Shown here one piece after another: positions 13,561 through 24,143 of a DNA stretch of 36,553 nt (its first letter is position 1; the number at the start of each line of letters is the position of its first letter). The stretch is from IMG/VR virus record IMGVR_UViG_3300042987_000744, positions 1 through 36,553 of that record; one strand, 5' to 3'. The translations under genes and the position numbers were made by a program. This DNA comes from a virus. A model generated the notes under the pieces. It was not told the DNA's origin. It searched no databases and saw nothing but the letters and a program-made list of their open reading frames with translations.

Positions 13561-13998
13561 TTACGCTGTAATTTCTTTAACATCCAACACCCGGATTAAA
13601 ACATTTGTCCGGTCACTTGTGCCATACCGTTTTTTTACGGTCAAACAGACCACTTGCTTATCGTCAACCCAAACAGTCCCATTCAGACCGTCTAAAACCG
13701 CCTTAGCGAGGTTGTCAGCATCTGGCGATACCAAGTGATGCTCCATGCCTTCCGACGCTCTCTTGCGCTTTTTTGCCGACCACGATGCAGGCGGCAGAAA
13801 CTCTGCCTCGATGACGACCTCACAGGCTTGCTCAGTGGCCGGTGCGTTACCGATGGCCTGCTTTGCTGTCCATGCGACGAGCTGCTCAAAATTCACCGTT
13901 TTTTCAGGCGTGAAAGCGCGAACAAAACCGCCTTGCCTTGAGAAGCGAGGGCGACCTTTCCCAATTGGCTTGCCGGGTATAGTGAACTCAATCATCAT
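13561..13998 (-). CDS. rusA: RusA-family Holliday junction resolvase
   Basis: 145 residues, typical RusA size. The N-terminal strand MIEFTIPGKPIGKGRPRFSR and the conserved acidic motif SPDADNLAKAVLDGLNG, then TVWVDDKQVV, supply the metal-binding aspartates (D93, D95, D103, D112/D113). RusA cuts four-way junctions; in this phage it would resolve recombination or replication branches before packaging. The start sits in an ATGATG hexamer that contains the stop of the preceding gene. Confidence 0.92.
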   Translation of the reverse strand: MMIEFTIPGKPIGKGRPRFSRQGGFVRAFTPEKTVNFEQLVAWTAKQAIGNAPATEQACEVVIEAEFLPPASWSAKKRKRASEGMEHHLVSPDADNLAKAVLDGLNGTVWVDDKQVVCLTVKKRYGTSDRTNVLIRVLDVKEITA

Positions 13999-14180
13999 GA
14001 TTTACTTTTGATTTGCTCTGCCGCTTCTCTGGCCTGCGCTGCTGTCGGAAAACTCTTGATGATGTTTTTCCCGTCCCAAAGTGTGAATTTATCAATTCCA
14101 CTGCAAACCGCTCTGGCAATGTGGAACCGTTCGTCATGTGTTGCCACGCTGTAATCGCTTGTGCGCTTCCATTCCATCAT
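13995..14180 (-). CDS. Small hypothetical protein in the replication operon
   Basis: 61 residues, mixed charge, with no membrane segment or metal motif. The middle (IDKFTLWDGKNIIKSFPTAA) and the end (AQAREAAEQIKSKS) suggest a small beta-hairpin plus helix. An AAAGGA site precedes an ATGATG start pair at 14180/14177. It is coupled to the genes on both sides by TGA stops embedded in ATGATG. Function unknown. Confidence 0.6.
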   Translation of the reverse strand: MMEWKRTSDYSVATHDERFHIARAVCSGIDKFTLWDGKNIIKSFPTAAQAREAAEQIKSKS

Positions 14181-14803
14181 TGAATCCTTTTGATTGTCGA
14201 GAGCAATTGGCGCAAAGCGATTTTGCCGGCTTCCGTCGGCTGTCCGCTATCTGGGGCAGGCAACAGTCCAGCCGAATGTTCTGCCGTCAGCCTTCCCATT
14301 CTTACCGCCGCTTCTAAAGCATCAGCCCGTCTCGATGGCTCCGTTCCGAATGATGCGAACCACTTAACCTCAGCACCAATCGGCATTTCTGACATGATTC
14401 GCTCATACGCCGATTTGAATGCCATTCTTGCGCCAACCTTATCCGGCATCACATCACGCGCAATTCCCCACGCTGTGGCAATAGGCTGATTCCAGACAAC
14501 GGTCGTCGATTCGTCCTGTGCCTGTACCGCAATCGCCCAGGCTTCATCGGCAGACAATGGTGCGTTTTTCTGAGGATTCATCTTTTCGATTTTGCCCACA
14601 ATGTGAGCTGGCATAGGCATAAACCGACCTGCATCAGAATCCATCATGTGCGCTTCAAAAGCCGCTTTTACCTCAGACACGTTAAAACGGCTCAGGAGCC
14701 TCCACCACAGTCTGATGCTATCCACACTCATTTCGCGTGAATAAACGTCTGCTACACCCCTTAAAATCGCTGCAAACGCCTTTTTATCTTCGTCAGTCAT
14801 CAT
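14177..14803 (-). CDS. Putative replication protein (helicase-loader-like)
   Basis: 208 residues from ATG 14803; starts at 14812 and 14800 are also possible. An N-terminal helical region (DEDKKAFAAILRGVADVYSR, then SVDSIRLWWRLLSRFNVSEV) and the MDSDAGRFMPMPAHIVGKIE segment resemble small phage proteins that follow DUF1376 genes and act as loader- or DnaT/lambda-P-like factors. No ATPase motif is seen, so it is not a DnaC-type loader. The loader role comes from its position directly after the initiator-like gene. Confidence 0.55.
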   Translation of the reverse strand: MMTDEDKKAFAAILRGVADVYSREMSVDSIRLWWRLLSRFNVSEVKAAFEAHMMDSDAGRFMPMPAHIVGKIEKMNPQKNAPLSADEAWAIAVQAQDESTTVVWNQPIATAWGIARDVMPDKVGARMAFKSAYERIMSEMPIGAEVKWFASFGTEPSRRADALEAAVRMGRLTAEHSAGLLPAPDSGQPTEAGKIALRQLLSTIKRIQ

Positions 14804-15582
14804 TGCACCCATTTTGCGGTTGAATCAATCACGTTTCTGTCATCAGGCTCACCAAGAAACCCGTCAAAGTTTTCCGACCTTCTCACCGATGCGGCTGCGG
14901 CTTTCCCTGCTACGTTTTGCAGCCATTCAGCCTTAAACCCCGTCCAACCCCTCTCGCACATTGTCTGCAATGCTGTCTGCATGGTGATGTTCGCTTTCGT
15001 GGCTTCTCTTGCAATCCCATCGAGTGCCGTTTGCGTTACAGGCGCTTTCTTCGCTTTCCTGTGAGCAACCCAATCCGACCAGACTTGTATGTCCACATCA
15101 TCGGGTTTGGAGACACTAGAGCGCGAAGCGCGTTCTGCCGCTTGCGGCTTTTCTTTATCTTGTTTATTGGTTATTGGTTCTTGGTTATTGGTTAATGGTT
15201 TATGGTTAGGTGGCGGTTCGTTCACGCATGGTGACGGTTCGTGCACGGTTCGTGCACCGCCCTTACGCTTTTGCTCACGTTCCGTTGCAATTCTCTTGTT
15301 TATTTCAGCATTTTTGACGTAAGCAGCAATTTCCTCGGCAATCCTGCTTTGGATGTAAACACCGTCTTTTAGATCAAAAAATCGACTCAAAACAAACTTA
15401 ACAGCCTGCTCCTCCTCCTCAGACCTTGCCCAACACCAGTCCAATGCCTCATCAATCGTTGGAAACCGTTCACGGTCATAGCACGCATCGATCAAAAGCG
15501 TATACGCTCCGTGCTCAAGCATAGACAGCCTTCCGGCCTTCTTTGCGTAGTCACCAATGTTTCGTTTGTAGTAGTGCATCAT
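14800..15582 (-). CDS. DUF1376 (YdaU-like) replication initiator-like protein
   Basis: 260 residues. The N-terminal 85 residues match DUF1376: MHYYKRNIGDYAKKAGRLS, EHGAYTLLIDACYDRERFPT, then FVLSRFFDLKDGVYIQSRI. A low-complexity linker (about 110-150) contains two 7-residue units (PLTNNQE, PITNKQD) and VHEP/VNEP repeats; its DNA is repeat-rich and may be the origin. The C-terminal domain (about 160-230) includes IQVWSDWVAHRKAKKAPVTQ and WTGFKAEWLQ, as in phage replication proteins of the lambda O style. It is coupled to its neighbours by ATGATG junctions. Confidence 0.82.
   Translation of the reverse strand: MMHYYKRNIGDYAKKAGRLSMLEHGAYTLLIDACYDRERFPTIDEALDWCWARSEEEEQAVKFVLSRFFDLKDGVYIQSRIAEEIAAYVKNAEINKRIATEREQKRKGGARTVHEPSPCVNEPPPNHKPLTNNQEPITNKQDKEKPQAAERASRSSVSKPDDVDIQVWSDWVAHRKAKKAPVTQTALDGIAREATKANITMQTALQTMCERGWTGFKAEWLQNVAGKAAAASVRRSENFDGFLGEPDDRNVIDSTAKWVQ
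15118..15148. repeat. Two adjacent hairpins beside the origin-like repeats
   Basis: 15118-15125 pairs with 15129-15136 (8 bp including one G-T pair, loop AAG), and 15137-15141 pairs with 15144-15148. Both lie inside the DUF1376 linker coding sequence, 17 bp from the 7-bp repeats. Confidence 0.6.
15165..15206. repeat. Six tandem 7-bp repeats (consensus TATTGGT) in the DUF1376 gene
   Basis: Units begin at 15165, 15172, 15179, 15186, 15193 and 15200. Three are perfect TATTGGT; the others are TCTTGGT, TAATGGT and TTATGGT. Being AT-rich and inside an initiator-type gene, they could be the unwinding element or binding sites of an origin, as in lambda O. Confidence 0.75.
15215..15257. repeat. Three 11-bp iterons (GGTTCGTKCAC) in the DUF1376 gene
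   Basis: Copies at 15215-15225 (GGTTCGTTCAC), 15236-15246 and 15247-15257 (both GGTTCGTGCAC). Their spacings are 21 and 11 bp, near one and two helical turns, which fits side-by-side binding of an initiator. Confidence 0.7.
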
Positions 15583-15901: not shown

Positions 15902-16315
15902 ATGAACGTAGGAAAATTAATTGACGCGCTTGGTGGCGCGCAGGAAATGATCAAAATCACCGGAATGACTGGCGGTCGGATTTCACAAATGCGGAGCAAA
16001 AACAAGATGCCAAAATCTTGGTTAATGTTCTTTGAAAACAAGTATCCAGACGCAGTACATCAAGCAAATGATCAAAATGCAGAAGAAAGGCAAAAACAAA
16101 CGCTAATTTATTTACACAATGGCGCGTTGATTGTCGGCCTTGCAACGAGCGACAATACTTTTACTCGCGTTGAAGAAGCGCACGAAGTGAAACAAAGTGA
16201 CGTTTCTATATTTGAAAAAATAGACAGCGTACTAAACAAATCAGCAGAGCTAAAAAAAATAACTGGCTCTTTGAAAATAACAAATAGCTCCATTGTTTTT
16301 AGTATTGATTTCTAA
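15902..16315 (+). CDS. Cro/YdaS-type regulator with an extra C-terminal domain
   Basis: 137 residues. Residues 5-42 (IDALGGAQEMIKITGMTGGR, ISQM, NKMPKSW) follow the YdaS/Cro helix-turn-helix pattern ALGG..a.a..TG.t...vSqw...g.iP. Residues from about 60 to the end form a different domain (IYLHNGALIVGL, then coiled-coil-like IFEKIDSVLNKSAEL) that I do not recognise; Cro proteins usually lack it. As the first rightward gene it probably acts on the adjacent control region. No CI-type partner is seen in the genome. Confidence 0.65.
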   Translation: MNVGKLIDALGGAQEMIKITGMTGGRISQMRSKNKMPKSWLMFFENKYPDAVHQANDQNAEERQKQTLIYLHNGALIVGLATSDNTFTRVEEAHEVKQSDVSIFEKIDSVLNKSAELKKITGSLKITNSSIVFSIDF

Positions 16316-16342
16316 AAAAACAAAAAAATATTTATTTAGTAC

Positions 16343-16371
16343 TTTACAAAAGTAAAAACATAGTTTAATAT
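16343..16371 (+). promoter_or_regulatory. Probable sigma-70-like promoter for the early rightward genes
   Basis: TTTACA (16343-16348), a 17-bp spacer and TAATAT (16366-16371), lying 37 bp before the next start. A related 31-mer occurs at 18354-18384 (25 of 31 identical to 16342-16372), so the same upstream segment flanks both ends of the GC-rich block. Confidence 0.5.
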
Positions 16372-16408
16372 TACAAACATCAACAACATAACAACTGAAA
16401 GGTAAAAA

Positions 16409-17014
16409 ATGAGACAAATTACTAAAAAAGATATCGAAGCAGCTAAAGATGCTGCATCTTATCTCGATTTAGACCTCGATTTAGAGGTCGAAGGCACACC
16501 ATCTTCGGAAGAAGGGTGGGGCGAAGCCCCAACCCAATCCCCCTGCCCACGGGCAGAGGCAGAGGCAGTCGTGCTCACCACCGGCGAGCGCGGCTACGTC
16601 CGCAAGGAACTGGCCAAGCTGCTCGGTTTTCACGAAAACAACACGGGTCACCGTTTTCGGCAAATTTTGGCCGATTACGCGCCTAACTCATTGTCAGAGT
16701 TAGATAAATTTGACTCACCGATTTGCCTTCCGAACGGTCGTCGGGCGCAGTTTTTCCCTGCAGGTGTGATCACCATGATTGCGTCCGGCGTAATCGACGC
16801 CGCGCTCAGCCGGACACTGCACCGTGCCCGGCAAAAGCTCGTGCCAAACTGCATGAAGATCATGCGGGCTCTCGCAACCACCGGCGAGGTCGCGCTGATG
16901 ACGGCAGTACCTACCGCGCCTTCGTCACCCACACCGTCAATCCCTACGGCTTCCCGGCCAAAGACCGCAGCGGTCGCCTCGACCTGCTGGAGCCGCCGCA
17001 TCTCGGTGCGCTGA
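16409..17014 (+). CDS. GC-rich block gene 1, paralogue of the gene at 17729, probably frameshifted
   Basis: 201 residues as read. The first 20 residues are AT-rich phage-like. Residues 20-52 are encoded by hairpin-bearing DNA. Residues 54-145 are homologous to the 17729 protein (VVLTTGERGYVRKELAKLLG, then HRFRQILADYAPNSLS and RRAQFFPAGVI). From about residue 163 the reading becomes Pro/Ser/Thr-rich and non-protein-like, while the other frame encodes convincing protein (see 16894-17088). I therefore suspect a frameshift near 16890-16900. The shared domain is unknown to me; RxELAxLLGFHE suggests a small DNA-binding helical unit. It starts after ACAACTGAAAGG. Confidence 0.55.
   Translation: MRQITKKDIEAAKDAASYLDLDLDLEVEGTPSSEEGWGEAPTQSPCPRAEAEAVVLTTGERGYVRKELAKLLGFHENNTGHRFRQILADYAPNSLSELDKFDSPICLPNGRRAQFFPAGVITMIASGVIDAALSRTLHRARQKLVPNCMKIMRALATTGEVALMTAVPTAPSSPTPSIPTASRPKTAAVASTCWSRRISVR
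16446..16556. repeat. Left hairpin cluster at the GC-rich block border
   Basis: Short inverted repeats with unrelated stems: 16446-16460 (AAGATG/CATCTT, loop CTG), 16472-16489 (GACCTC/GAGGTC, loop of 6), 16517-16531 (TGGGGC/GCCCCA, loop GAA) and 16543-16556 (CTGCC/GGCAG, loop of 4). A direct repeat CTCGATTTAGA also occurs at 16463 and 16475. All lie in frame inside the coding sequence of the gene at 16409. Confidence 0.75.
16562..16636 (+). repeat. 75-bp near-identical repeat, copy 1
   Basis: Identical to 17792-17866 at 74 of 75 positions (the difference is G at 16621 against T at 17851). Flanking protein sequence is clearly homologous but far more diverged at DNA level, which suggests gene conversion or recent recombination limited to this segment. 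Confidence 0.9.
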
Positions 17015-17088
17015 TCGCCAAGTGCGCGGGCACAACCGCCGCGCCTGCCTGCGCCGCCACCCCCGCACACATCGAATCTCAGGAGTAA
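16894..17088 (+). pseudogene. Out-of-frame 3' coding remnant upstream of the ssDNA-binding-like gene
   Basis: This frame reads ADDGSTYRAFVTHTVNPYGF, then PAKDRSGRLDLLEPPHLGAL and IAKCAG, a well-formed, high-GC3 protein segment ending 5 bp before the next ATG; its final codons carry the CAGGAG ribosome site. It has no plausible own start: the open frame begins at 16723 with Arg/His-rich shadow sequence. It probably is the rest of the 16409 product after a one-base indel, or the tail of a separate gene truncated by rearrangement. Confidence 0.5.
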
Positions 17089-17093
17089 TCGCA

Positions 17094-17717
17094 ATGACCG
17101 CATGGAATGATTTCAACGACGCCGACGCCCAGCAATCCGGCTTTGATCTGATCCCCAAGGGCACCGTTGTCCCGGTGCGCATGACCCTCAAGCCCGGTGG
17201 TTACGACGACCCGTCGCAGGGCTGGGGCGGCGGCTACGCCACCGAGTCTTTCGAGACCGGCTCGATCTACCTTGCCGCCGAATTCGTGGTCACCGCTGGT
17301 GACCACGCCAAACGCAAGATGTGGTCGAACATCGGCCTGCATTCCAAGAAGGGGCCGACCTGGGGCCAAATGGGGCGCAGCTTCATTCGCGCGGCGCTCA
17401 ACAGCGCCCGCAACGTCCACCCGCAGGACAACAGCCCACAGGCTTCTTCTGCGCGCCGCATCCAGGGCTTCCACGAACTGGATGGCCTGGAGTTCCTCGC
17501 CCGCGTCGACATCGAGAAGGACGGCAAGGGCCAGGACCGCAACGTGGTCAAAGTAGCGGTCGAACCCGACCACCCCGACTACGCCAAGTTGATGGGCGTG
17601 CCGACCAAGGCTGCAGGCGGCGGCACTTCCGGTGCACCAGCGCAGGTAGCACCCGCGTACCAGACCCCGGCTCAGCAACGCGCACCCGTGACGGGCAAAC
17701 CGTCGTGGGCGCAGTGA
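17094..17717 (+). CDS. Putative ssDNA-binding-like protein (DUF669-type), GC-rich
   Basis: 207 residues from ATG 17094 after CAGGAG; the frame is open further upstream, but those codons are shadow. Order: N-terminal FDLIPKGTVVPVRMTLKPGG, then IYLAAEFVVTAGDHAKRKMW, GRSFIRAALNSARNVHPQDN, GLEFLARVDIEKDGKGQDRN-VVKV, and a disordered Ala/Pro/Gln tail (about 175-207). The 'PKGT..VR.....F.v..G....RK.W' layout resembles DUF669/phage ssDNA-binding proteins. GC content and codon use are far higher than in the AT-rich backbone, indicating acquisition. A second, backbone-type SSB is present at 20813. Family assignment is tentative. Confidence 0.6.
   Translation: MTAWNDFNDADAQQSGFDLIPKGTVVPVRMTLKPGGYDDPSQGWGGGYATESFETGSIYLAAEFVVTAGDHAKRKMWSNIGLHSKKGPTWGQMGRSFIRAALNSARNVHPQDNSPQASSARRIQGFHELDGLEFLARVDIEKDGKGQDRNVVKVAVEPDHPDYAKLMGVPTKAAGGGTSGAPAQVAPAYQTPAQQRAPVTGKPSWAQ
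17285..17307. repeat. 10-bp perfect hairpin inside the ssDNA-binding-like gene
   Basis: CGTGGTCACC (17285-17294) pairs perfectly with GGTGACCACG (17298-17307), loop GCT. It encodes ordinary protein sequence (VVTAGDH), so it is tolerated within a gene. Confidence 0.7.
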
Positions 17718-17728
17718 GGGAGGTGGCC

Positions 17729-18328
17729 ATGAACGCATCCATGCTCACTGCCAGCCACTACGGCGTCGTCCATTTCGGCGATCTCGACTGCGAGGCAGTC
17801 GTGCTCACCACCGGCGAGCGCGGCTACGTCCGCAAGGAACTGGCCAAGCTTCTCGGTTTTCACGAATCGCACAAGGGTGGCCGTTTCGCCCGTTTTCTGG
17901 CTGACATTGCACCTAACTCATTGTCTCTATTGGAGAAATCATCCGGGCCGATTTTGCTGCCATCGGGACGCCAGACCCAGTTCTTCCCTGCAGGCATCAT
18001 CGCGGACGTGGCCACCTCCGTTGAGGACGCTGCCGCTGCACGCGCAGCGGTAAGAAAAAATATCGATGATTTCAGATCATCGAGGGGGCGCAAGCCAACA
18101 AACGCCCAAGCCGCGTTTGCTGCAAGGGCCGAAGCCGAACGCCGCGCGTTTGAAGTCGGGACTATTCATTTTGCCCAAAATGGGAGGATAAGCTTTGGAA
18201 AATCCACCCGATATTTCGGGTGGCAAACCCAGCGGGACTACCCGCACTTATTCACCTCTTGCGAGGTGAAGGTGAGAATAACAAAGTATGACCCGCTTTC
18301 GAGCGGGGTGGAGGTAGAGCCTGCGTAG
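17729..18328 (+). CDS. GC-rich block gene 2 (paralogue of 16409), with hairpin-encoded C-terminus
   Basis: 199 residues from ATG 17729 after GAGGGAGG. Residues 20-112 are homologous to the gene at 16409 (VVLTTGERGYVRKELAKLLG, ADIAPNSLSLLEK, QTQFFPAGIIADVA). Residues 110-199 are encoded by DNA that is nearly all hairpins, yet read as protein (KNIDDFRSSRGRKPTNAQAA, then FGKSTRYFGWQTQRDYPHLF). The first half is GC-rich; towards the end composition falls back to backbone levels. The family is unknown to me. Paralogues flanking an ssDNA-binding gene suggest a transferred three-gene module; a DNA-binding or regulatory role is a guess. Confidence 0.65.
   Translation: MNASMLTASHYGVVHFGDLDCEAVVLTTGERGYVRKELAKLLGFHESHKGGRFARFLADIAPNSLSLLEKSSGPILLPSGRQTQFFPAGIIADVATSVEDAAAARAAVRKNIDDFRSSRGRKPTNAQAAFAARAEAERRAFEVGTIHFAQNGRISFGKSTRYFGWQTQRDYPHLFTSCEVKVRITKYDPLSSGVEVEPA
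17792..17866 (+). repeat. 75-bp near-identical repeat, copy 2
   Basis: Partner of 16562-16636, in the same orientation, 1230 bp apart. Recombination between the copies would delete the ssDNA-binding-like gene and fuse the two paralogues in frame. Confidence 0.9.
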
Positions 18329-18397
18329 GCTCGAAAGCGGTTTTATTCAACCGCTTTACAAATTTAAAAAAATAGTTTCAGTTTAAAGAAAACTGAA
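18033..18397. repeat. Hairpin array, part 1 (end of the GC-rich block)
   Basis: Successive inverted repeats (outer limits; stem/loop): 18033-18050 (7/4), 18064-18082 (7/5), 18099-18119 (7/7), 18138-18150 (5/3), 18167-18182 (6/4), 18204-18223 (8/4), 18232-18245 (5/4), 18251-18270 (8/4), 18292-18307 (6, loop TTCG), 18317-18332 (6/4), 18334-18357 (9/6) and 18377-18397 (8/5). Stem sequences are all different. Most fall inside the gene ending at 18328; the last two lie in the following 83-bp gap, where 18334-18357 could also end transcription, though it lacks a T run. Confidence 0.85.
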
Positions 18398-18411
18398 CAA
18401 TAAAAGGAAAA

Positions 18412-18735
18412 ATGAAAATGGAAAAATTCATAAATTTAACCCCCCATTCTTTAACTGTTGAAGGGCTGGGGACTATCCCAGCCAGCGGGCAGATTGCTCG
18501 CGTTGAAACCCGACGCTGCTGCGTCGGGAGTATAAATGGCATACGTCTGGTTAGCCAGACGTTCGGAGAGGTTCAGAACCTCCCCGAGCCACGCGAAGGC
18601 GTGGTGTACATTGTTTCAGCGCTCGTACTGAGCGCACTAGCAGGAACGCGGCGCGATGTAGTCGCGCCTGATACAGGGGCTGACGCTGTCCGTGAAAACG
18701 GGCAGATTGTGGCTGTACGTGGATTTGTACAGTAA
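18412..18735 (+). CDS. Conserved small phage protein (INLTPH...SALV family), tiled with hairpins
   Basis: 107 residues. FINLTPHSLTVEGLGTIPAS, GQIARVE, QTFGEVQNLPEPREGVVYIV, then SALVLSALAGTRRDVVAPDT and AVRENGQIVAVRGF match a small family found in many proteobacterial phages and prophages; I know no function for it. The protein is full length and its conserved positions are intact. The DNA, however, carries nine hairpins in sequence, covering most of the gene. AAAGG precedes the ATG. It is followed directly by the 57-aa gene. Confidence 0.78.
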   Translation: MKMEKFINLTPHSLTVEGLGTIPASGQIARVETRRCCVGSINGIRLVSQTFGEVQNLPEPREGVVYIVSALVLSALAGTRRDVVAPDTGADAVRENGQIVAVRGFVQ

Positions 18736-18893
18736 ATGAAAAATTATAAATGGTGGGAGATAGTCGAGCCCCTCCCAGAGGGTTGGAGAATTGACTATAA
18801 CGCAGGGTCACCACTGCACGGACACGTTTTCATTATCAGCGGAAGCCCCCTAAAAGGGGGAAAGCGTGCACTTCTGCGGGTTTATCCGCAGAA
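18464..18893. repeat. Hairpin array, part 2 (within two intact small genes)
   Basis: Inverted repeats (outer limits; stem/loop): 18464-18483 (7/6), 18509-18528 (8/4), 18543-18562 (8/4), 18564-18586 (6/3, extended by 3 after a mismatch), 18589-18604 (6/4), 18619-18635 (6/5), 18650-18668 (7/5), 18686-18705 (8 with one G-T pair, loop GAAA), 18713-18732 (6/8), 18770-18782 (5/3), 18846-18860 (6/3) and 18872-18893 (8/6). A weaker one at 18902-18917 holds the next ribosome site. With part 1 this gives about twenty stems of 6 bp or more in 860 bp. Confidence 0.85.
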
Positions 18894-18909
18894 AAACAAT
18901 AACAACTGA
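18736..18909 (+). CDS. Small conserved phage protein (57 aa)
   Basis: 57 residues, starting at the base after the upstream TAA. WWEIVEPLPEGWRIDYNAGS, then PLHGHVFIISG and GKRALLRVYPQ match small proteins that in other phages directly follow genes of the preceding family (pattern LP.gW..d..aGSPL.G..F...G....G.kRALLRV). That paired order supports both calls. Two strong hairpins (18846-18860, 18872-18893) fall in the second half. Function unknown. Confidence 0.7.
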   Translation: MKNYKWWEIVEPLPEGWRIDYNAGSPLHGHVFIISGSPLKGGKRALLRVYPQKNNNN

Positions 18910-18921
18910 AAGGTTGTAGAA

Positions 18922-19005
18922 ATGAAACTTAATGAACTGTTAGCAATTATCGGATTCGGCTTGGGGTGGGCTTGGATCATATTCGACGGTATGAGGCTAT
19001 ATTGA
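18922..19005 (+). CDS. Very small membrane peptide
   Basis: 27 residues, MKLNELLAIIGFGLGWAWII then FDGMRLY. A single hydrophobic helix of about 17 residues is visible. The ribosome site is GGTTGTAG/AAAGG. Its TGA overlaps the next ATG by one base (TGATG), so it could also serve to couple translation of the DUF3310 gene. Real expression is not certain. Confidence 0.45.
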   Translation: MKLNELLAIIGFGLGWAWIIFDGMRLY

Positions 19006-19214
19006 TGGAAACAAATGCACATTACAAAAAAATGAATGTTGAGCCATGGGACGTTATTGACTCTTGGCCAAGAGAGCAAAGAGTAGGTTTTTATCGCGGA
19101 AATATAATTAAATACGCGATGAGGATTGGAAGTAAAGACGAAAATCTAAAAGAAGCTTTGAAACTTTTAGATTATGCAAAAAAACTTGTAGAGATATTAG
19201 AGCAAAAAGAATAA
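19005..19214 (+). CDS. DUF3310 family protein (SaV-like)
   Basis: 69 residues from ATG 19005. NAHYKKMNVEPWDVIDSW, then GFYRGNIIKYAMRIGSKDEN and ALKLLDYAKKLVEIL give the family pattern HY....iepwDvI......yl.GNiiKYv.R...K....dl.Ka..yl..li. DUF3310 proteins are widespread in phages and often annotated as nucleotide-kinase-like; the biochemical role remains uncertain. It overlaps the membrane peptide by one base. Confidence 0.82.
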   Translation: METNAHYKKMNVEPWDVIDSWPREQRVGFYRGNIIKYAMRIGSKDENLKEALKLLDYAKKLVEILEQKE

Positions 19215-19240
19215 TAAATATTTAAAAACGGAGAAAAAAA

Positions 19241-19411
19241 ATGAAACATCAAATTAAAGCATTTTCTGATCAAGAAAGTGCAGCAATCTCAAAAATTTTA
19301 CTTCTATTACAAGAAGTAAAATCAAAAGAAAAAAAAGCCTCTTTGTGGGATGATATATCTAGTTTGGCGCTTTCATGCGCGATTAAATATAAAAAAAATG
19401 AAAACACATGA
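19241..19411 (+). CDS. Small hypothetical protein (56 aa)
   Basis: 56 residues, start preceded by ACGGAG. It is Lys/Ser-rich with a helical middle (AAISKILLLLQEVKSKEKKA). No motif is recognised. It overlaps the next membrane protein gene by 14 bp. The good ribosome site and coding composition like its neighbours support it. Confidence 0.5.
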   Translation: MKHQIKAFSDQESAAISKILLLLQEVKSKEKKASLWDDISSLALSCAIKYKKNENT

Positions 19412-19538
19412 ATATATCTTCGTGGCCTTTGAAATATTAACAAAGGCTACTTTAGCGGTAGCGCTATCAGCGGCTGCAATATGCTGCATATCTTTTAGCG
19501 TATTTTTTTTAGTATTGTTTTTAATAAAATTAGTTTAA
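19398..19538 (+). CDS. Small membrane protein (46 aa)
   Basis: 46 residues from ATG 19398: a polar start (MKTHEYIFVAFEILTKATLA) and one or two hydrophobic segments (VALSAAAICCISFSVFFLVL). The upstream extension to 19350 lies in the preceding gene and is rejected. A small inner-membrane peptide is likely. Its role is unknown. Confidence 0.5.
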   Translation: MKTHEYIFVAFEILTKATLAVALSAAAICCISFSVFFLVLFLIKLV

Positions 19539-19559
19539 GTTTAAAACGGAGAAATAAAA

Positions 19560-20129
19560 ATGGAAATGTCAGGATCAATTACTGAATTATCAGCAGCTTT
19601 AGCAGCAGCGCAAACAGAGTTAAACAACCCTGCTTTTGACTCAAAGAATCCGCACTTTAAAAGCTCATACGCTTCTTTAGCTTCAGTGCGCAATACGGTT
19701 GTACCTGTTCTTGCGAAGCATGGACTAAGCGTTATACAAGACGTTTCAGCGGTTGAAAACGGTGTTGTATGCGTTCAAATGCTGCTTCACAAATCAGGCC
19801 AGTGGATTAGAACGGCTGGTTTAAAAGTCCCGTTTGATAAAGCTAATGCACATGGTTACGGATCCGCGACAACATACGCCCGCAGGTTTAGCCTTATGGC
19901 TTTAGTTTGTGTGGTCGGTGACGACGACGATGACGGTAACGCTGTATCTATGCAACAAATCCAAAGAACAGAAAAAAAAGTTGAGCCGGATTTAGCCTGG
20001 ATCGCAAAGATAGATGAAGCATCTACGTTAGATGCACTTGCTAGTGTTTGGACTGCTATGCCGAAACAGCAGCAAGAATTGTTAAAAAGATTAAAAGACA
20101 AAAAGAAAAAAGAATTAACAGCAGAATAA
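19560..20129 (+). CDS. erf: ERF-family single-strand annealing recombinase
   Basis: 189 residues. The N-terminal helix and LNNPAFDSKNPHFKSSYASL, then the signature HGYGSATTYARRFSLMALVC-VVGDDDDDGN (99-127), are those of the P22 Erf family. The C-terminal 60 residues are basic and helical. Erf forms rings on ssDNA and anneals complementary strands; P22 uses it for circularising its terminally redundant genome. It works with the YqaJ-like exonuclease next to it. ACGGAG lies before the ATG. Confidence 0.92.
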   Translation: MEMSGSITELSAALAAAQTELNNPAFDSKNPHFKSSYASLASVRNTVVPVLAKHGLSVIQDVSAVENGVVCVQMLLHKSGQWIRTAGLKVPFDKANAHGYGSATTYARRFSLMALVCVVGDDDDDGNAVSMQQIQRTEKKVEPDLAWIAKIDEASTLDALASVWTAMPKQQQELLKRLKDKKKKELTAE

Positions 20130-20168
20130 AAAATGTTATTAAAAAAACTTACAACTGAAAGAATAAAA

Positions 20169-20798
20169 ATGGACCTCAAAACAATAACTTATGAATATCC
20201 ACAAAGAAGCACTGATTGGATTAACGTTAGGATGGGATGTGTAACTGGATCAGGTGTTACAAATGTTTTTGCCAAAACAAAAACAGGAGAATCAGAAGCA
20301 AAGAAAAAATACAAAACAAAATTAATTGTAGAACGCCTTACAAATGAATCGCAAGATAACGATTTTGTAAGCACAGCGATGCTGTGGGGAATCGAAAAGG
20401 AAGAAATGGCTCGCGTAGCATATCAAGAACAAAACGAAGTTTTTGTTAAACAAGAAGGCTTTATAAAAATAGAAAATGAATTTATAGGTTATTCACCAGA
20501 TGGCCTTGTAAGTGAAAACGGTTTAATAGAAATTAAATGTCCTAGCAGTGCTAAACATTTTGAATATTTGGACAGCGAAGAAATCCCAAATGAATATATA
20601 AATCAAATGATATTAGGCATGATAGTAACTAATCGCAGCTGGTGTGATTTTATTAGTTATGATCCAAGGTTTACAAAAAGCATGCAATTATTTGTAAAAA
20701 GAATTTTTGCAAAAGACTACGATACAGAAGGATTTTTAAAATCAGTCAGAGAATTTAACAACGAAGTAGAGCAATCAATTAGAAAACACATTTTTTAA
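20169..20798 (+). CDS. YqaJ/lambda-Exo-like exonuclease
   Basis: 209 residues from ATG 20169, preceded by ACAACTGAAAG; an in-frame ATG at 20133 adds 12 residues. QRSTDWINVRMGCVTGSGV (12-30) is the family start, EKEEMARVAY gives the middle acidic helix, and SPDG...LIEIKCPS supplies the PD-ExK nuclease residues D111, E121 and K123. It degrades DNA ends to leave ssDNA tails that Erf anneals. The order annealer, exonuclease, SSB is a standard phage recombination set. Confidence 0.9.
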   Translation: MDLKTITYEYPQRSTDWINVRMGCVTGSGVTNVFAKTKTGESEAKKKYKTKLIVERLTNESQDNDFVSTAMLWGIEKEEMARVAYQEQNEVFVKQEGFIKIENEFIGYSPDGLVSENGLIEIKCPSSAKHFEYLDSEEIPNEYINQMILGMIVTNRSWCDFISYDPRFTKSMQLFVKRIFAKDYDTEGFLKSVREFNNEVEQSIRKHIF

Positions 20799-20812
20799 AA
20801 AAGGAACTTAAT

Positions 20813-21175
20813 ATGTTTAGCAATGTTTTTAGAATCGGAAAAGATGCAGTTGTTCGCAGAACACAAAACAATGATGCAGTTTGCACGCTTTCTCTGTGCT
20901 ATACATTTGGATATAAAGAAAAAAAAACAACTCAATGGATAGAAGGAACAATTTTTGGGAAAACGGCCGAAGCGTTAGAGCCTTATTTAACAAAAGGCAA
21001 ACAGATTTACGCAATGCTTGATGATGTATACAACGAAGAATACGAAGGAAAAACAAGGTTAAAAGGAAGAATATTAAAAATCACGCTTTTAAGTGATAAC
21101 AGCGCAGCAACAAAAGAAGCTCCGCAGCGACAAAAACAAATGCAAGACATTGAAGAGGATGACGTACCATTTTAA
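20813..21175 (+). CDS. ssb: Single-stranded DNA-binding protein
   Basis: 120 residues with one OB-fold: NVFRIGKDAVVRRTQNNDAV, TFGYKEKKTTQWIEGTIFGK, LTKGKQIYAMLDDVYNEEYE, LKGRILKITLLS. The C-terminus is the acidic tip EEDDVPF, the standard SSB tail that docks partner proteins. It is somewhat shorter than bacterial SSB and typical of phages. It directly follows the exonuclease and precedes a terminator, closing the recombination cluster. Confidence 0.92.
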   Translation: MFSNVFRIGKDAVVRRTQNNDAVCTLSLCYTFGYKEKKTTQWIEGTIFGKTAEALEPYLTKGKQIYAMLDDVYNEEYEGKTRLKGRILKITLLSDNSAATKEAPQRQKQMQDIEEDDVPF

Positions 21176-21204
21176 AAAATGGCAGGTGAAACCCTGCCTT
21201 TTAA
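21176..21204 (+). terminator. Rho-independent terminator after ssb
   Basis: GGCAGG (21181-21186) pairs with CCTGCC (21193-21198), loop TGAAAC, flanked by an A-run before and TTTT after. It begins just after the ssb stop. The short T-run suggests partial termination. Confidence 0.7.
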
Positions 21205-21253
21205 TTATTGCTTTACTTTTTAATTAATTTACTTTAACAACTGAGGAAAAAAA

Positions 21254-21469
21254 ATGATGGAACAGACAATTTTTAAGTATGAAGGTTTAGAGTTCGTAGT
21301 TGATTATGAATTCGACAAAGGCGAAAAAGAGACCGATACTGACTTCGGTTGGGCCCCTTATGTTGAGGTACACGCAGTTTGGCTAAATGGCGTTGACATG
21401 TATGACATGCTTCAAAAAAGCATACTAGATTATATCGAAGCTCAATTATTATCTGAACACATAGATTGA
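21254..21469 (+). CDS. Small acidic hypothetical protein
   Basis: 71 residues, preceded by CTGAGG. It is acidic, with VVDYEFDKGEKETDTDFGWA then EVHAVWLNGVDMYDMLQKSI, and looks like a compact alpha/beta unit. No family is recognised. Its last codons lie in the first copy of a 24-bp tandem repeat, so the end LLSEHID may be recent. It is the first gene after the ssb terminator and may have its own promoter in the AT-rich 21205-21253 stretch. Confidence 0.6.
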   Translation: MMEQTIFKYEGLEFVVDYEFDKGEKETDTDFGWAPYVEVHAVWLNGVDMYDMLQKSILDYIEAQLLSEHID

Positions 21470-21498
21470 CACATATCTGAACACATAGATTGACACAC
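21451..21498. repeat. 24-bp direct tandem duplication
   Basis: 21451-21474 and 21475-21498 match at 23 of 24 positions (unit begins ATCTGAACACATAGATTGAC). The first copy contains the stop of the upstream gene; the second lies just beyond it. It looks like a recent slippage duplication. Confidence 0.9.
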
Positions 21499-21547
21499 TA
21501 TGCGCCTAGCATGGCGCATATTTAAATACAGCTGCTTTCTAGCAGCT
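21499..21547 (+). repeat. Two strong hairpins in the intergenic gap
   Basis: TATGCGCC/GGCGCATA (21499-21506 with 21513-21520, loop of 6) and AGCTGCT/AGCAGCT (21530-21536 with 21541-21547, loop TTCT). Neither has a T-run, so termination is doubtful. They resemble the distinct-stem hairpins of the 18-kb array and sit just before the next ribosome site. Confidence 0.7.
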
Positions 21548-21565
21548 TTAAAAACTGAGGATAAT

Positions 21566-21775
21566 ATGAATAATATTGAAAATTTAGTAAAAGAATGGCT
21601 CAGAACAAAAGCAAAAGAAGAATTACTGAGCGTTCAAAGAAAAGAAATAGAACGGCAAATAAATCAAGCTCTGATTTCTGGTGAAATCATTAAGCCAGAG
21701 ATTTTAAACCTTTTAGGCAGAGTTTTAAAAAAAACCGGCGCAAGGCCGGAACAAACATCAAAGGAGAAAAAATGA
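21566..21775 (+). CDS. Small coiled-coil protein (69 aa)
   Basis: 69 residues from ATG 21566 after CTGAGG; an upstream in-frame ATG at 21500 falls inside a hairpin and is rejected. The sequence is almost wholly helical and charged (WLRTKAKEELLSVQRKEIER, QINQAL). A small hairpin, CCGGC/GCCGG at 21735-21749, lies in its 3' end. Its TGA overlaps the next ATG (ATGA). No function is recognised. Confidence 0.55.
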   Translation: MNNIENLVKEWLRTKAKEELLSVQRKEIERQINQALISGEIIKPEILNLLGRVLKKTGARPEQTSKEKK

Positions 21776-21825
21776 AAATGCAAAAAAATAATAACAAAAA
21801 AAAATATCAAAATCAACAATTTTAA
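21772..21825 (+). CDS. Possible micro-ORF (17 aa)
   Basis: 17 residues, Lys/Asn/Gln-rich, with AAGGAG upstream and an ATGA overlap with the previous gene. It may be real or act only as a translational bridge. The low-complexity, A-rich sequence carries little evidence of its own. Confidence 0.25.
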   Translation: MKMQKNNNKKKYQNQQF

Positions 21826-21833
21826 GGAAAATC

Positions 21834-21902
21834 ATGATCAATTTAATTTTAATTTGTTGCGCTTTTATAGGTTGCGCTGTAGTTCCTGATGATTTTTGCT
21901 AA
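21834..21902 (+). CDS. Possible very small hydrophobic/lipoprotein-like peptide (22 aa)
   Basis: MINLILICCAFIGCAVVPDD plus FC. AAGGA precedes the ATG. The hydrophobic start and cysteines in LICCAF/FIGCAV resemble a miniature lipobox, but the peptide is too short to be sure. It could be a membrane toxin-like or regulatory peptide, or not expressed at all. Confidence 0.3.
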   Translation: MINLILICCAFIGCAVVPDDFC

Positions 21903-21913
21903 ATGAGGTGATT

Positions 21914-22315
21914 ATGCTAATCAATAAAATAAAACCAGCAACAAAAACAATTTTAAACATTTTGCAAGAAAAGCATAACATTTTTGACTTGCAGCAAAAA
22001 GTTAATATTAACTTAAGCGCAACAAGACAAGTGGTCGTAAGGCTAATGGATTATAAACTTGTGTATGCATGCGATACAAAATTAGACGATATCCGGCAAA
22101 GAAGATTAACGTATTATCAAATAACAGAAGCAGGAACAGAGCTTTTAAACAAAATAAATAAGCTATATGGCGTTGAAGAAACAAAAACAAATAGCAAAAA
22201 AAACTATCTATTTGGCCATACTATGTCACTAAATAAAACAAGGGAATTTATAGAAACACTTAAACATAAAGCCACGCCTTGGGACGCTCTTTTATTAAAG
22301 GATAAAAATGCTTAA
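21914..22315 (+). CDS. Winged-helix (MarR-like) DNA-binding protein
   Basis: 133 residues from ATG 21914 after GAGGTG. Residues 10-80 read as a winged helix: ILNILQEKHNIFDLQQKVNI, then ATRQVVVRLMDYKLVYACDT and RRLTYYQITEAGTELLNKIN, where the TYYQITEAG wing-to-helix step is typical. The C-terminus (SLNKTREFIETLKHKATPWD) is separate. It is probably a regulator of middle or late phage genes; its target is unknown. It overlaps the next gene by 8 bp. Confidence 0.65.
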   Translation: MLINKIKPATKTILNILQEKHNIFDLQQKVNINLSATRQVVVRLMDYKLVYACDTKLDDIRQRRLTYYQITEAGTELLNKINKLYGVEETKTNSKKNYLFGHTMSLNKTREFIETLKHKATPWDALLLKDKNA

Positions 22316-22541
22316 ATTGAATTTAAAAAACAGTAGTTTTGTTTGCGTTCCAAACACGCAAAATAGACCTTACTTATTAAATGAACAGATAAACACAAAT
22401 ATACAAGATTCTGTAAAAAAACAAGATGTAGATGAAATTAAGTTTGATGGAAAAAACTGGGCTAGAACTATTTTAAGCAATGAAAACGCACATAATAAAA
22501 TAGCCGTGATGTGGGCTAGAGGAATATTAAAAAATGGCTGA
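22308..22541 (+). CDS. Small hypothetical protein (77 aa)
   Basis: 77 residues, overlapping both neighbours by 8 bp. It has a beta-like start (LKLNLKNSSFVCVPNTQNRP) and a helical end (NWARTILSNENAHNKIAVMW, ARGIL). Tight packing between two recognisable genes supports it. No motif is recognised. Confidence 0.55.
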   Translation: MLKLNLKNSSFVCVPNTQNRPYLLNEQINTNIQDSVKKQDVDEIKFDGKNWARTILSNENAHNKIAVMWARGILKNG

Positions 22542-22887
22542 AAAGTCAATTCTTTCGGAACATCAAGAACAAAAAATATTTATATCTTGGTTTGAACTTG
22601 CATATCCCGATAAATTAATCTTTGCAATACCAAATGGCGGTAAAAGAAATATTGTTACTGCTGCAAAATTAAAAGCAGAAGGCGTAAAATCTGGCGTTCC
22701 TGATTTGTTTATACCTGAGCACAATGTTTGGGTTGAAATGAAAAGAAAAGCAAAAGCAAGTCTATCAACTTCTCAGAAAGCAATGATAGAAAAGCTAAAA
22801 AATTGCGGTCACGTTGTTTTAGTGTGCTACGGTTGTGATGACGCAATATTGCAAGTAACAAATTATTTAAAAATAGAGGCCAAATAA
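22534..22887 (+). CDS. VRR-NUC domain nuclease
   Basis: 117 residues, a stand-alone VRR-NUC domain. AIPNGGKRNIVTAAKLKAEG, then VKSGVPDLFIP (D57), VWVEMKRK (E68, K70) and LSTSQK (Q81) give the PD-(D/E)xK site with the family's glutamine. Phage single-domain VRR-NUC enzymes are related to Holliday-junction resolvases and flap nucleases. This is the second branch-cutting type nuclease after RusA. It overlaps the preceding gene by 8 bp. Confidence 0.88.
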   Translation: MAEKSILSEHQEQKIFISWFELAYPDKLIFAIPNGGKRNIVTAAKLKAEGVKSGVPDLFIPEHNVWVEMKRKAKASLSTSQKAMIEKLKNCGHVVLVCYGCDDAILQVTNYLKIEAK

Positions 22888-22888
22888 A

Positions 22889-23077
22889 ATGAAAAAAATA
22901 ATTGATTTATTAAGAAGTGTTTATGTGCTGCCAAGCGCAAGAGTTTTAGCAATTAAAGATCTTGAAGACTCAAAAAGAAAGTTGCTAGAAATGGAAACTA
23001 ACCTTGATTACGCTCAAAGCATGTGCAATTACTACAAAGCAAAAATTAACAGACTTGAAAAATATGTGTTAAAATAA
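22889..23077 (+). CDS. Small coiled-coil hypothetical protein (62 aa)
   Basis: 62 residues. After VYVLPSARVLAIKDLEDSKR the rest is a long charged helix (KLLEMETNLDYAQSMCNYYK, AKINRLE) with heptad-like spacing. It follows the VRR-NUC stop by 1 bp. Similar short helical proteins with a 'LPSA..lA..dLe...r.Lle' start are common in phage early regions. Role unknown. Confidence 0.55.
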   Translation: MKKIIDLLRSVYVLPSARVLAIKDLEDSKRKLLEMETNLDYAQSMCNYYKAKINRLEKYVLK

Positions 23078-23104
23078 TTAACAATTAACAACGGAGCAAG
23101 AAAA

Positions 23105-23746
23105 ATGAGTTTAATTCAAAATCTTTTTTATACAGAAAAGAAAAAACCAAAATATTTGGTTATAAAAGATAAGCCCTTATGTTCTCTTCATGGCATTTTA
23201 AAAAAATGCAATCATTGTAATGATGGTCATCTTGAAATATTTTATTTCAAATTTGTTCTGCTTAGAACAAAAATAAATAATTTTGGAGCATTTACATTCT
23301 TAGGTTGCGATAAATGCAACACCTACAAAATCAACGCCGGAAAGTTCATAGAATTAAACGTCTATGACGTATGCAACAAACAATCTGTTAATGAAAAAGA
23401 ATATAAGGAGCTTTTAAGTCTATATGAAAACTCTAACAATGTTGTTAAGTTTCTTGATGATTTTCCGCAACGAAGATTCTCAAAAGACCTGACATTGGCA
23501 GGTATAAAAAAAATGCTCAACCATGATCAAATTTACTCTATGGTTGTTAATGAAATTCAATTTTATAGGCCGAGTATGAAAAATTGCAAACTAAAACGTG
23601 ATTTTAATTGTTTTTCAATCTTAGCATCTAGTTTGTTGATTTTTACTTCAATCTTGTTATTTTTTTTATTTGTTTTAATATACGGTGAAAACATAACTGG
23701 TTATATAAGTAACGTATTAGAAAGTATTATATTCAGTTCTTTTTAA
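23105..23746 (+). CDS. Cys-rich protein with C-terminal membrane segment
   Basis: 213 residues. The N-terminal half has Cys/His clusters (CSLHGILKKCNHC at about 26-38 and CDKC near 69-72) that could bind zinc as a split ribbon. Residues about 167-192 (FNCFSILASSLLIFTSILLF onward) form a strong membrane helix, followed by a second weaker hydrophobic stretch. It is a backbone-type AT-rich gene and the last rightward one; its end overlaps the holin gene by 14 bp on the other strand. A membrane regulator, exclusion or lysis-timing protein is possible; I do not recognise the family. Confidence 0.6.
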   Translation: MSLIQNLFYTEKKKPKYLVIKDKPLCSLHGILKKCNHCNDGHLEIFYFKFVLLRTKINNFGAFTFLGCDKCNTYKINAGKFIELNVYDVCNKQSVNEKEYKELLSLYENSNNVVKFLDDFPQRRFSKDLTLAGIKKMLNHDQIYSMVVNEIQFYRPSMKNCKLKRDFNCFSILASSLLIFTSILLFFLFVLIYGENITGYISNVLESIIFSSF

Positions 23747-24143
23747 CTTTTTCGTATGTTCGCAAGCTTGCCAAACCTAACAAAGGTAGTAACAAAGCCA
23801 AAATTGATTCAACATCAATCTGCGGAAATGTTACTATCTTGTTTGTTAAGATTAGAAAAATCGATGGTGCGATAGGCTGAAAAATATAATTGTAAAAAAG
23901 ACCAAACGCACAAATCCATCCACATGACGACCTCCATCCTGATTTATAAAAATTTTCGCTTGCTGCGTCTATTTTATTTATTTCAGTTTGATTGTTTGAT
24001 AACTGAATAGCGGCATCTAATTGCTTTGTTTCGCTTTCTTGAGTTAATTTTAAAATCTCAATTTGCGCTTGTGATTTCTTTTCATTATCTGGAATTAGTC
24101 TATCAATAATTCCAAAAACGCCATTTAATAATAAAGGATTCAT
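23733..24143 (-). CDS. Holin (3TM phage holin type)
   Basis: 136 residues. A polar helical N-terminus (to about 60) is followed by YKSGWRSSCGWICAFGLFYN (the GWR..cGW motif of 3TM holins), IFQPIAPSIFLIL and ILALLLPLLGLASLRTYEK, giving about three membrane helices. It overlaps the endolysin gene by 4 bp (ATGA). It would form the lesion that releases or activates the endolysin. It is the last gene of the leftward late transcript. Confidence 0.8.
   Translation of the reverse strand: MNPLLLNGVFGIIDRLIPDNEKKSQAQIEILKLTQESETKQLDAAIQLSNNQTEINKIDAASENFYKSGWRSSCGWICAFGLFYNYIFQPIAPSIFLILTNKIVTFPQIDVESILALLLPLLGLASLRTYEKVKKN

Follow-up and report, generated by a model that had tools for sequence, protein, structure and literature searches.

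Hairpin-dense coding sequence around a Crn4-type ring nuclease gene in a tailed phage: possible structural protection of a counter-defence mRNA

The locus and its features

The sequence studied, referred to here as the window, is a virus record of 36,553 bases from a tailed phage, in which the terminase, portal, and major head genes lie on the minus strand and the early genes on the plus strand. The early cluster includes a DUF3310 gene and genes for an ERF annealing protein, a YqaJ exonuclease, and an SSB, the last three located closely 3′ of a dense array of hairpins. A megablast search of 12–24 kb of the record against phages returned no match. The features of the locus are as follows.

16894–18043, plus strand: foreign GC-rich segment, with DNA identity of up to 97% to many GC-rich phage contigs
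17729–18328, plus strand: chimeric ORF, 199 aa; N-terminal ~104 aa resembling phrog_2384 (GC-rich phage family), C-terminal ~95 aa matchless; hairpins in the tail only
18033–18893, plus strand: hairpin array; 20 perfect stems of at least 6 bp with loops of 3–8 nt and unrelated sequences, plus nested longer pairings
18033–18050, plus strand: hairpin, CCGCTGC acgc GCAGCGG
18063–18083, plus strand: hairpin, TCGATGAT ttcag ATCATCGA
18099–18119, plus strand: hairpin, CAAACGC ccaagcc GCGTTTG
18167–18182, plus strand: hairpin with a loop of 2, CATTTTG cc CAAAATG
18204–18223, plus strand: hairpin, CCACCCGA tatt TCGGGTGG
18251–18270, plus strand: hairpin, TTCACCTC ttgc GAGGTGAA
18292–18307, plus strand: hairpin, CCCGCT ttcg AGCGGG
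18317–18332, plus strand: hairpin, GAGCCT gcgt AGGCTC
18334–18357, plus strand: hairpin, AAAGCGGTT ttattc AACCGCTTT
18377–18397, plus strand: hairpin, TTCAGTTT aaaga AAACTGAA
18398–18463, plus strand: A-rich, unstructured stretch in which the Crn4 gene has its ribosome-binding site and start; no stems
18412–18735, plus strand: Crn4-type ring nuclease gene, 107 aa, assigned by profile and fold; candidate catalytic residues T10, H12, and R94
18464–18483, plus strand: hairpin in the Crn4 CDS, GGCTGGG gactat CCCAGCC
18509–18528, plus strand: hairpin in the Crn4 CDS, CCCGACGC tgct GCGTCGGG
18543–18562, plus strand: hairpin in the Crn4 CDS, ACGTCTGG ttag CCAGACGT
18563–18587, plus strand: hairpin in the Crn4 CDS with one mismatch, TCGGAGAGGTTC / GAACCTCCCCGA
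18589–18604, plus strand: hairpin in the Crn4 CDS, CCACGC gaag GCGTGG
18619–18635, plus strand: hairpin in the Crn4 CDS, GCGCTC gtact GAGCGC
18650–18668, plus strand: hairpin in the Crn4 CDS, GGCGCGA tgtag TCGCGCC
18713–18732, plus strand: hairpin in the Crn4 CDS, CTGTAC gtggattt GTACAG
18736–18909, plus strand: ORF, 57 aa; homologue in the near relative L080 located elsewhere, on the opposite strand
18846–18860, plus strand: hairpin, CCCCCT aaa AGGGGG; L080 has CCCCAT/AGGTGG, with two positions unpaired
18872–18893, plus strand: hairpin, TTCTGCGG gtttat CCGCAGAA; identical in L080

The flanks of the central gene are poor in relatives: searches with the tail of the 199-aa protein found none, and those with the 57-aa gene found the L080 copy and no other. 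Similarity of the foreign segment at 16894–18043 to other phages stops where the hairpins start. Two phrog_2384-type genes lie in tandem at 16409–18328, and the GC-rich foreign DNA at 16562–18043 has one part that is 99% identical to contig L054 and another that is 97% identical to the L002 group, a mosaic attributable to recombination or to an assembly chimera. In L080, a short and different arrangement stands in place of 16429–18917 of the window, and the L080 record contains no Crn4.

Identity of the central gene

A profile built from 65 members of the family of the 107-aa protein was compared with the PDB, and the strong matches were Crn4 structures (Crn4b and Crn4a) alone, with E values of 4.5e-20 (9r7b), 3.2e-14, and 4e-12. 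The AlphaFold (AF2) model of the protein has a pLDDT of 96, and its comparison with known folds gave Z scores of 11.5–13.1 for Crn4 structures—the best being 9r7b, with a Z of 13.1 and an rmsd of 2.3 over 101 residues—and no significant fold family besides Crn4. PADLOC matched the protein to Unk_01, described as a "small protein, sometimes fused to CARF" (3e-22). Within the family, T10 and H12 are invariant and R94 is conserved in at least 90% of members; these residues correspond, by position rather than by superposition of side chains, to the conserved T13, H15, and R112 of the Crn4a active site (PMC12830947). Thus, by profile and fold, 18412–18735 encodes a Crn4-type ring nuclease, with the activity itself predicted from these matches.

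Phage copies of Crn4 have been proposed to act as anti-CRISPRs (PMC12830947), and the profile and fold matches, together with the phage context, make the 107-aa protein a likely anti-type III CRISPR protein. Such an enzyme should erase the alarm signal of type III (RNA-sensing) CRISPR immunity. The protein shares its profile, fold, and T/H/R positions with the CRISPR-associated Crn4 proteins described earlier; unlike the hairpin-rich gene here, those are presented, in the available part of that account, with no mention of mRNA structure (PMC12830947).

The hairpin array

A sequence-only reading of the window had pointed to a dense array of unrelated hairpins at 18033–18893, and it was found exactly there, with 20 stems of at least 6 bp, 12 of at least 7 bp, and 8 of at least 8 bp (loops of 3–8 nt). 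In 500 dinucleotide shuffles of the same segment, the corresponding means were 1.15, 0.27, and 0.06, and the maxima 5, 3, and 2. Codon-preserving shuffles, suggested in that reading as a check, did not yield a similar count in any of the three reading frames: 8 stems were observed versus 0.85 expected in the 107-aa gene, 6 versus 1.0 in the tail of the 199-aa gene, and 2 versus 0.33 in the 57-aa gene. The 3′ end of the 199-aa gene is covered as had been described, though the hairpins are confined to the last ~290 nt of what is a chimeric gene. Folding of the whole array as RNA gave z scores of −14.5 for the plus strand and −13.4 for the minus strand, and that of the 107-aa CDS, evaluated against synonymous shuffles, a z of about −6. 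None of the remaining 900-base steps of the window came near the hairpin count of the array, which is a local island and not one portion of genome-wide structure. The downstream early region at 20001–23500 has a smaller surplus of hairpins (6–9 per 900 bases, with about 2–3 expected).

Several kinds of stem-loops in or near genes are familiar, namely intrinsic terminators, REP/BIME elements, and Rickettsia palindromic elements. The array differs from all of these in lacking a shared sequence or U-tract, and in being dense, inside CDSs, and codon-compatible; intrinsic terminators were ruled out, the hairpins lying within CDSs and having no T runs. Pervasive internal structure in coding RNA is also known from RNA viruses as GORS, which is thought to aid evasion of host RNA sensing or decay. 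The array has such pervasive coding-RNA structure in common with GORS; however, GORS is genome-wide, whereas the structure here is local to one gene cluster of a DNA phage and centred on a counter-defence gene.

Recurrence at other ring nuclease loci

When 187 loci were ranked by hairpin density, the top of the ranking was dominated by loci fetched with the 107-aa Crn4 protein. Alignment of 65 distinct phage Crn4 loci on the gene showed a density peak at Crn4 (observed/expected 4.1), with values of about 1.8–2.3 at distances of 1.4–2.5 kb. Expectations in these density profiles derive from the base composition of the local stretch, and the CDS tests, which use codon shuffles, are the stronger evidence. 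By synonymous shuffling, the Crn4 CDSs contained 119 stems versus 48.5 expected and 29 long stems versus 6.5, and the control-locus ORFs showed 1.27-fold and 1.64-fold enrichment of stems and long stems, respectively. The comparison with relatives encoding the same protein, which had also been proposed, did not refute the observation in aggregate: these relatives have an excess made up of different stems, but the effect is uneven, with about half of the Crn4 loci showing little of it. The loci were deduplicated by shared 12-mers, which leaves some phylogenetic non-independence. The first whole-genome maps, which show a hairpin island including or abutting the Crn4 gene, came from genomes picked for a strong signal and serve as illustration only.

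If the hairpins belong to the function of ring nucleases, a viral ring nuclease of a different protein family should carry them as well. This prediction was examined with AcrIII-1 (DUF1874), a viral ring nuclease unrelated to Crn4, whose loci were gathered without regard to hairpins. The 69 distinct AcrIII-1 loci showed a gene-centred peak, 4.3-fold at the gene versus 1.4–2.0 distally, and AcrIII-1 CDSs contained 153 stems versus 52.7 in synonymous shuffles and 42 stems of at least 8 bp versus 6.3. AcrIII-1 is thus like Crn4 both as a counter-signalling gene and in its gene-centred hairpin peak. Alignment on phrog_2384 and ERF genes as anchors showed no hairpin peak.

Since the first maps used genomes chosen for dense hairpins, the test was redone on 21 unselected genomes, taken in list order irrespective of hairpins. 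In 11 of the 21, by a tally made from printed peak positions, the 900-base segment with the highest hairpin density in the genome lay no more than 1 kb from the ring nuclease gene (expected 1.9; P = 3e-7). Six of the genomes had no ring nuclease ORF passing the filter for the folding test; in the other 15, all of the ring nuclease CDSs had folding z scores below −2 against synonymous shuffles, compared with 24% of 260 size-matched small genes from the same genomes (p = 8e-9), and genes within 800 bases of the ring nuclease had intermediate scores. In larger sets, the mean z was −3.3 for Crn4 and −3.2 for AcrIII-1, with −2.2 for adjacent ORFs, −0.9 for distal ORFs, and −0.8 for phrog_2384. The identity of the central gene as Crn4 and the recurrence of such arrays at ring nuclease genes had both been missed in the sequence-only reading, which described the proteins of the two small genes as normal family members and could name no known element type that fits the array. 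Plasmid-borne ring nucleases showed weak and mixed enrichment, and the Crn4 matches on genome contigs were mixed or prophage-like and thus not a clean cellular type III sample.

Probable selection on RNA structure

Stems containing one G·U pair are enriched about threefold in the coding sequences, and those containing one A·C pair little or not at all. The sense Crn4 CDSs contained 27 one-G·U stems versus 9.2 expected and 10 one-A·C stems versus 6.6; the corresponding values were 48 versus 15.6 and 20 versus 20.9 for the CDSs neighboring Crn4, and 25 versus 7.6 and 6 versus 4.9 for AcrIII-1. Furthermore, folding favors the sense over the antisense strand in 37 of 45 Crn4 CDSs (p = 3e-6) and 31 of 45 AcrIII-1 CDSs (p = 9e-4). 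The stems of the window itself are nearly all Watson–Crick, and its sense and antisense strands fold equally well, so the case for the RNA level rests on the relatives. One window stem, TGCACG/CGTGCA, reads TGCATG/CGTGCG in L080, where two U·G wobbles keep the pairing in the sense RNA. Selection acting on the mRNA of ring nuclease genes is well supported by these data, in agreement with the earlier suggestion of a structured early mRNA under selection.

Two processes at the level of DNA had been suggested alongside it, namely template-switch correction that perfects quasipalindromes and binding sites for a single-stranded DNA-binding or annealing protein such as ERF or SSB. The nearly pure Watson–Crick stems of the window and the ERF, YqaJ, and SSB genes just downstream would suit either, and the window alone does not discriminate. 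Both processes would treat the two strands alike, however, and the strand asymmetry of the relatives—G·U stems enriched with A·C stems not, or much less so, and the sense strand favored—contradicts this. In addition, the density peaks track ring nuclease genes and not ERF genes, and a DNA-level cause is very improbable. The very low folding energy could also come from a conserved noncoding RNA with a defined structure, or from some other known type of palindromic element that overlaps the genes, but the sequences and numbers of the stems vary among relatives, the reading frames encode conserved proteins, and an Rfam search of 16001–24000 gave no match at E ≤ 1, making an element of this kind more improbable still.

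With respect to translation, the fraction of sequence in stems is 1.5% at 0 to +20 of the start and mostly 7–12% in the gene body, and the commonest loop length is 4 nt. The 4-nt loops and the stem-poor start region together give these messages the look of having been built for translation.

Possible function of the structured mRNA

Pairing of crRNA with a transcript leads type III effectors to raise cyclic oligoadenylate levels, and Csm6 and other non-specific RNases are thereby switched on (PMC10702470); in one system secondary structure in the target RNA cut type III activation by up to about 100-fold, an effect that its authors considered may matter in vivo (PMC8682760). The array is best read, with a probability of roughly 0.6, as secondary structure for which the mRNA of the Crn4 gene and its close neighbors has been selected, and which would guard this mRNA from RNA-directed immunity. 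In the proposed mechanism, type III CRISPR would detect phage transcripts by crRNA pairing and make cyclic oligoadenylate, which would in turn activate ribonucleases that cut single-stranded RNA. A ring nuclease could silence this alarm only if its own message persisted until translation had taken place. With a short, tight hairpin every 20–60 nt, the message would be shielded both from crRNA pairing and from nucleases specific for single-stranded RNA, while an open ribosome-binding site would still allow ribosomes to initiate and to unwind the hairpins. The need for this message to outlive the response would account for a structure centred on the ring nuclease gene. The gene-centred peak fits escape from activated RNases somewhat better than escape from crRNA pairing, because one transcript hidden from crRNAs leaves others detectable. 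Ring-nuclease activity, resistance to nucleases or crRNAs, and benefit to the phage are all predictions of this proposal.

The intended negative control did not behave as one. The CDSs of Acb1 (T4 57B, anti-CBASS) are structured, with mean z scores of −3.4 to −4.2 for fixed CDS stretches and −2.8 for the subset called as ORFs (neighbors −1.0 to −1.5), and no island comparable to those of ring nuclease loci was found at Acb1 loci. The Acb1 set consists of related T4-like phages in which the hairpins recur at two shared positions, and within T4, gene 57B is unexceptional (z −2.1; genes 1 and 2 lower). CBASS is not RNA-guided. As Acb1 is also structured, what the genes have in common may be the erasure of cyclic-nucleotide alarms and not action against type III systems, or part of the structure may reflect self-protection of the phosphodiesterase messages. 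In the T4 stretch L305 (2650–4886), genes 1 and 2 are strongly structured, with z scores of −3.7 and −4.8 against synonymous shuffles.

Self-protection would mean that the phosphodiesterases Crn4, AcrIII-1, and Acb1 have weak RNase activity, and that structure spares their own messages during translation. Crn4a has indeed been observed to cleave poly(A) RNA at high concentration, but it does so slowly, and the authors doubt that the activity is relevant (PMC12830947); structure in Acb1, a 2H phosphodiesterase directed against another defence, would likewise be expected, but the armouring of neighboring genes would not, and as the cause of the array self-protection seems quite unlikely. Tuning of mRNA stability or expression in small early accessory genes, unconnected to immunity against RNA, would accommodate the partly structured adjacent genes and a background hairpin density in these phages that is about twice random. 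It is nevertheless unlikely, given that small genes of matched size in these genomes show far less structure, that the ERF and phrog_2384 anchors lack a peak, and that the open starts speak against down-tuned initiation.

Protection of the message from RNA-directed immunity, if extended beyond the window, would mean that phages of many lineages independently evolve armoured mRNAs for erasers of cyclic-nucleotide alarms (Crn4, AcrIII-1, and perhaps Acb1), in which hairpin recoding lets translation of these messages continue during the destruction of other transcripts by RNA-guided or signal-activated nucleases, a generalization that we consider slightly favored by the present data. If true, this would be a form of evasion that works through the counter-defence gene's own nucleic acid, with an anti-CRISPR message shielded from the RNA-directed immunity that it has to stop; it would account for the production of a ring nuclease after the alarm has sounded, and would suggest selection on RNA structure in DNA phages. 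No published account of such mRNA armour was found in the open-access literature. Hairpin islands could then mark counter-defence genes, including further anti-type III genes, without recourse to homology, for example among the unidentified neighbors within the islands.

Other hairpin-rich regions were noted in passing. In L359, two uncharacterized genes directly upstream of AcrIII-1 (13986–15023) are richer in hairpins than AcrIII-1 itself, with a 16-bp stem within CDS, and are candidate counter-defence genes. In L160, small zinc-ribbon-like genes precede Crn4 (1900–2820), and in some of them a hairpin of 10–12 bp comes immediately before the ribosome-binding site. Several perfect stems of 10–14 bp surround the Crn4 locus of L079, a 150-kb phage record (693–8811), and the ~6.5-kb hairpin island of L206, a 371-kb phage record (10900–17900), also carries a dispersed repeat with the translation PVLKTFFFDP, which sits between small genes.
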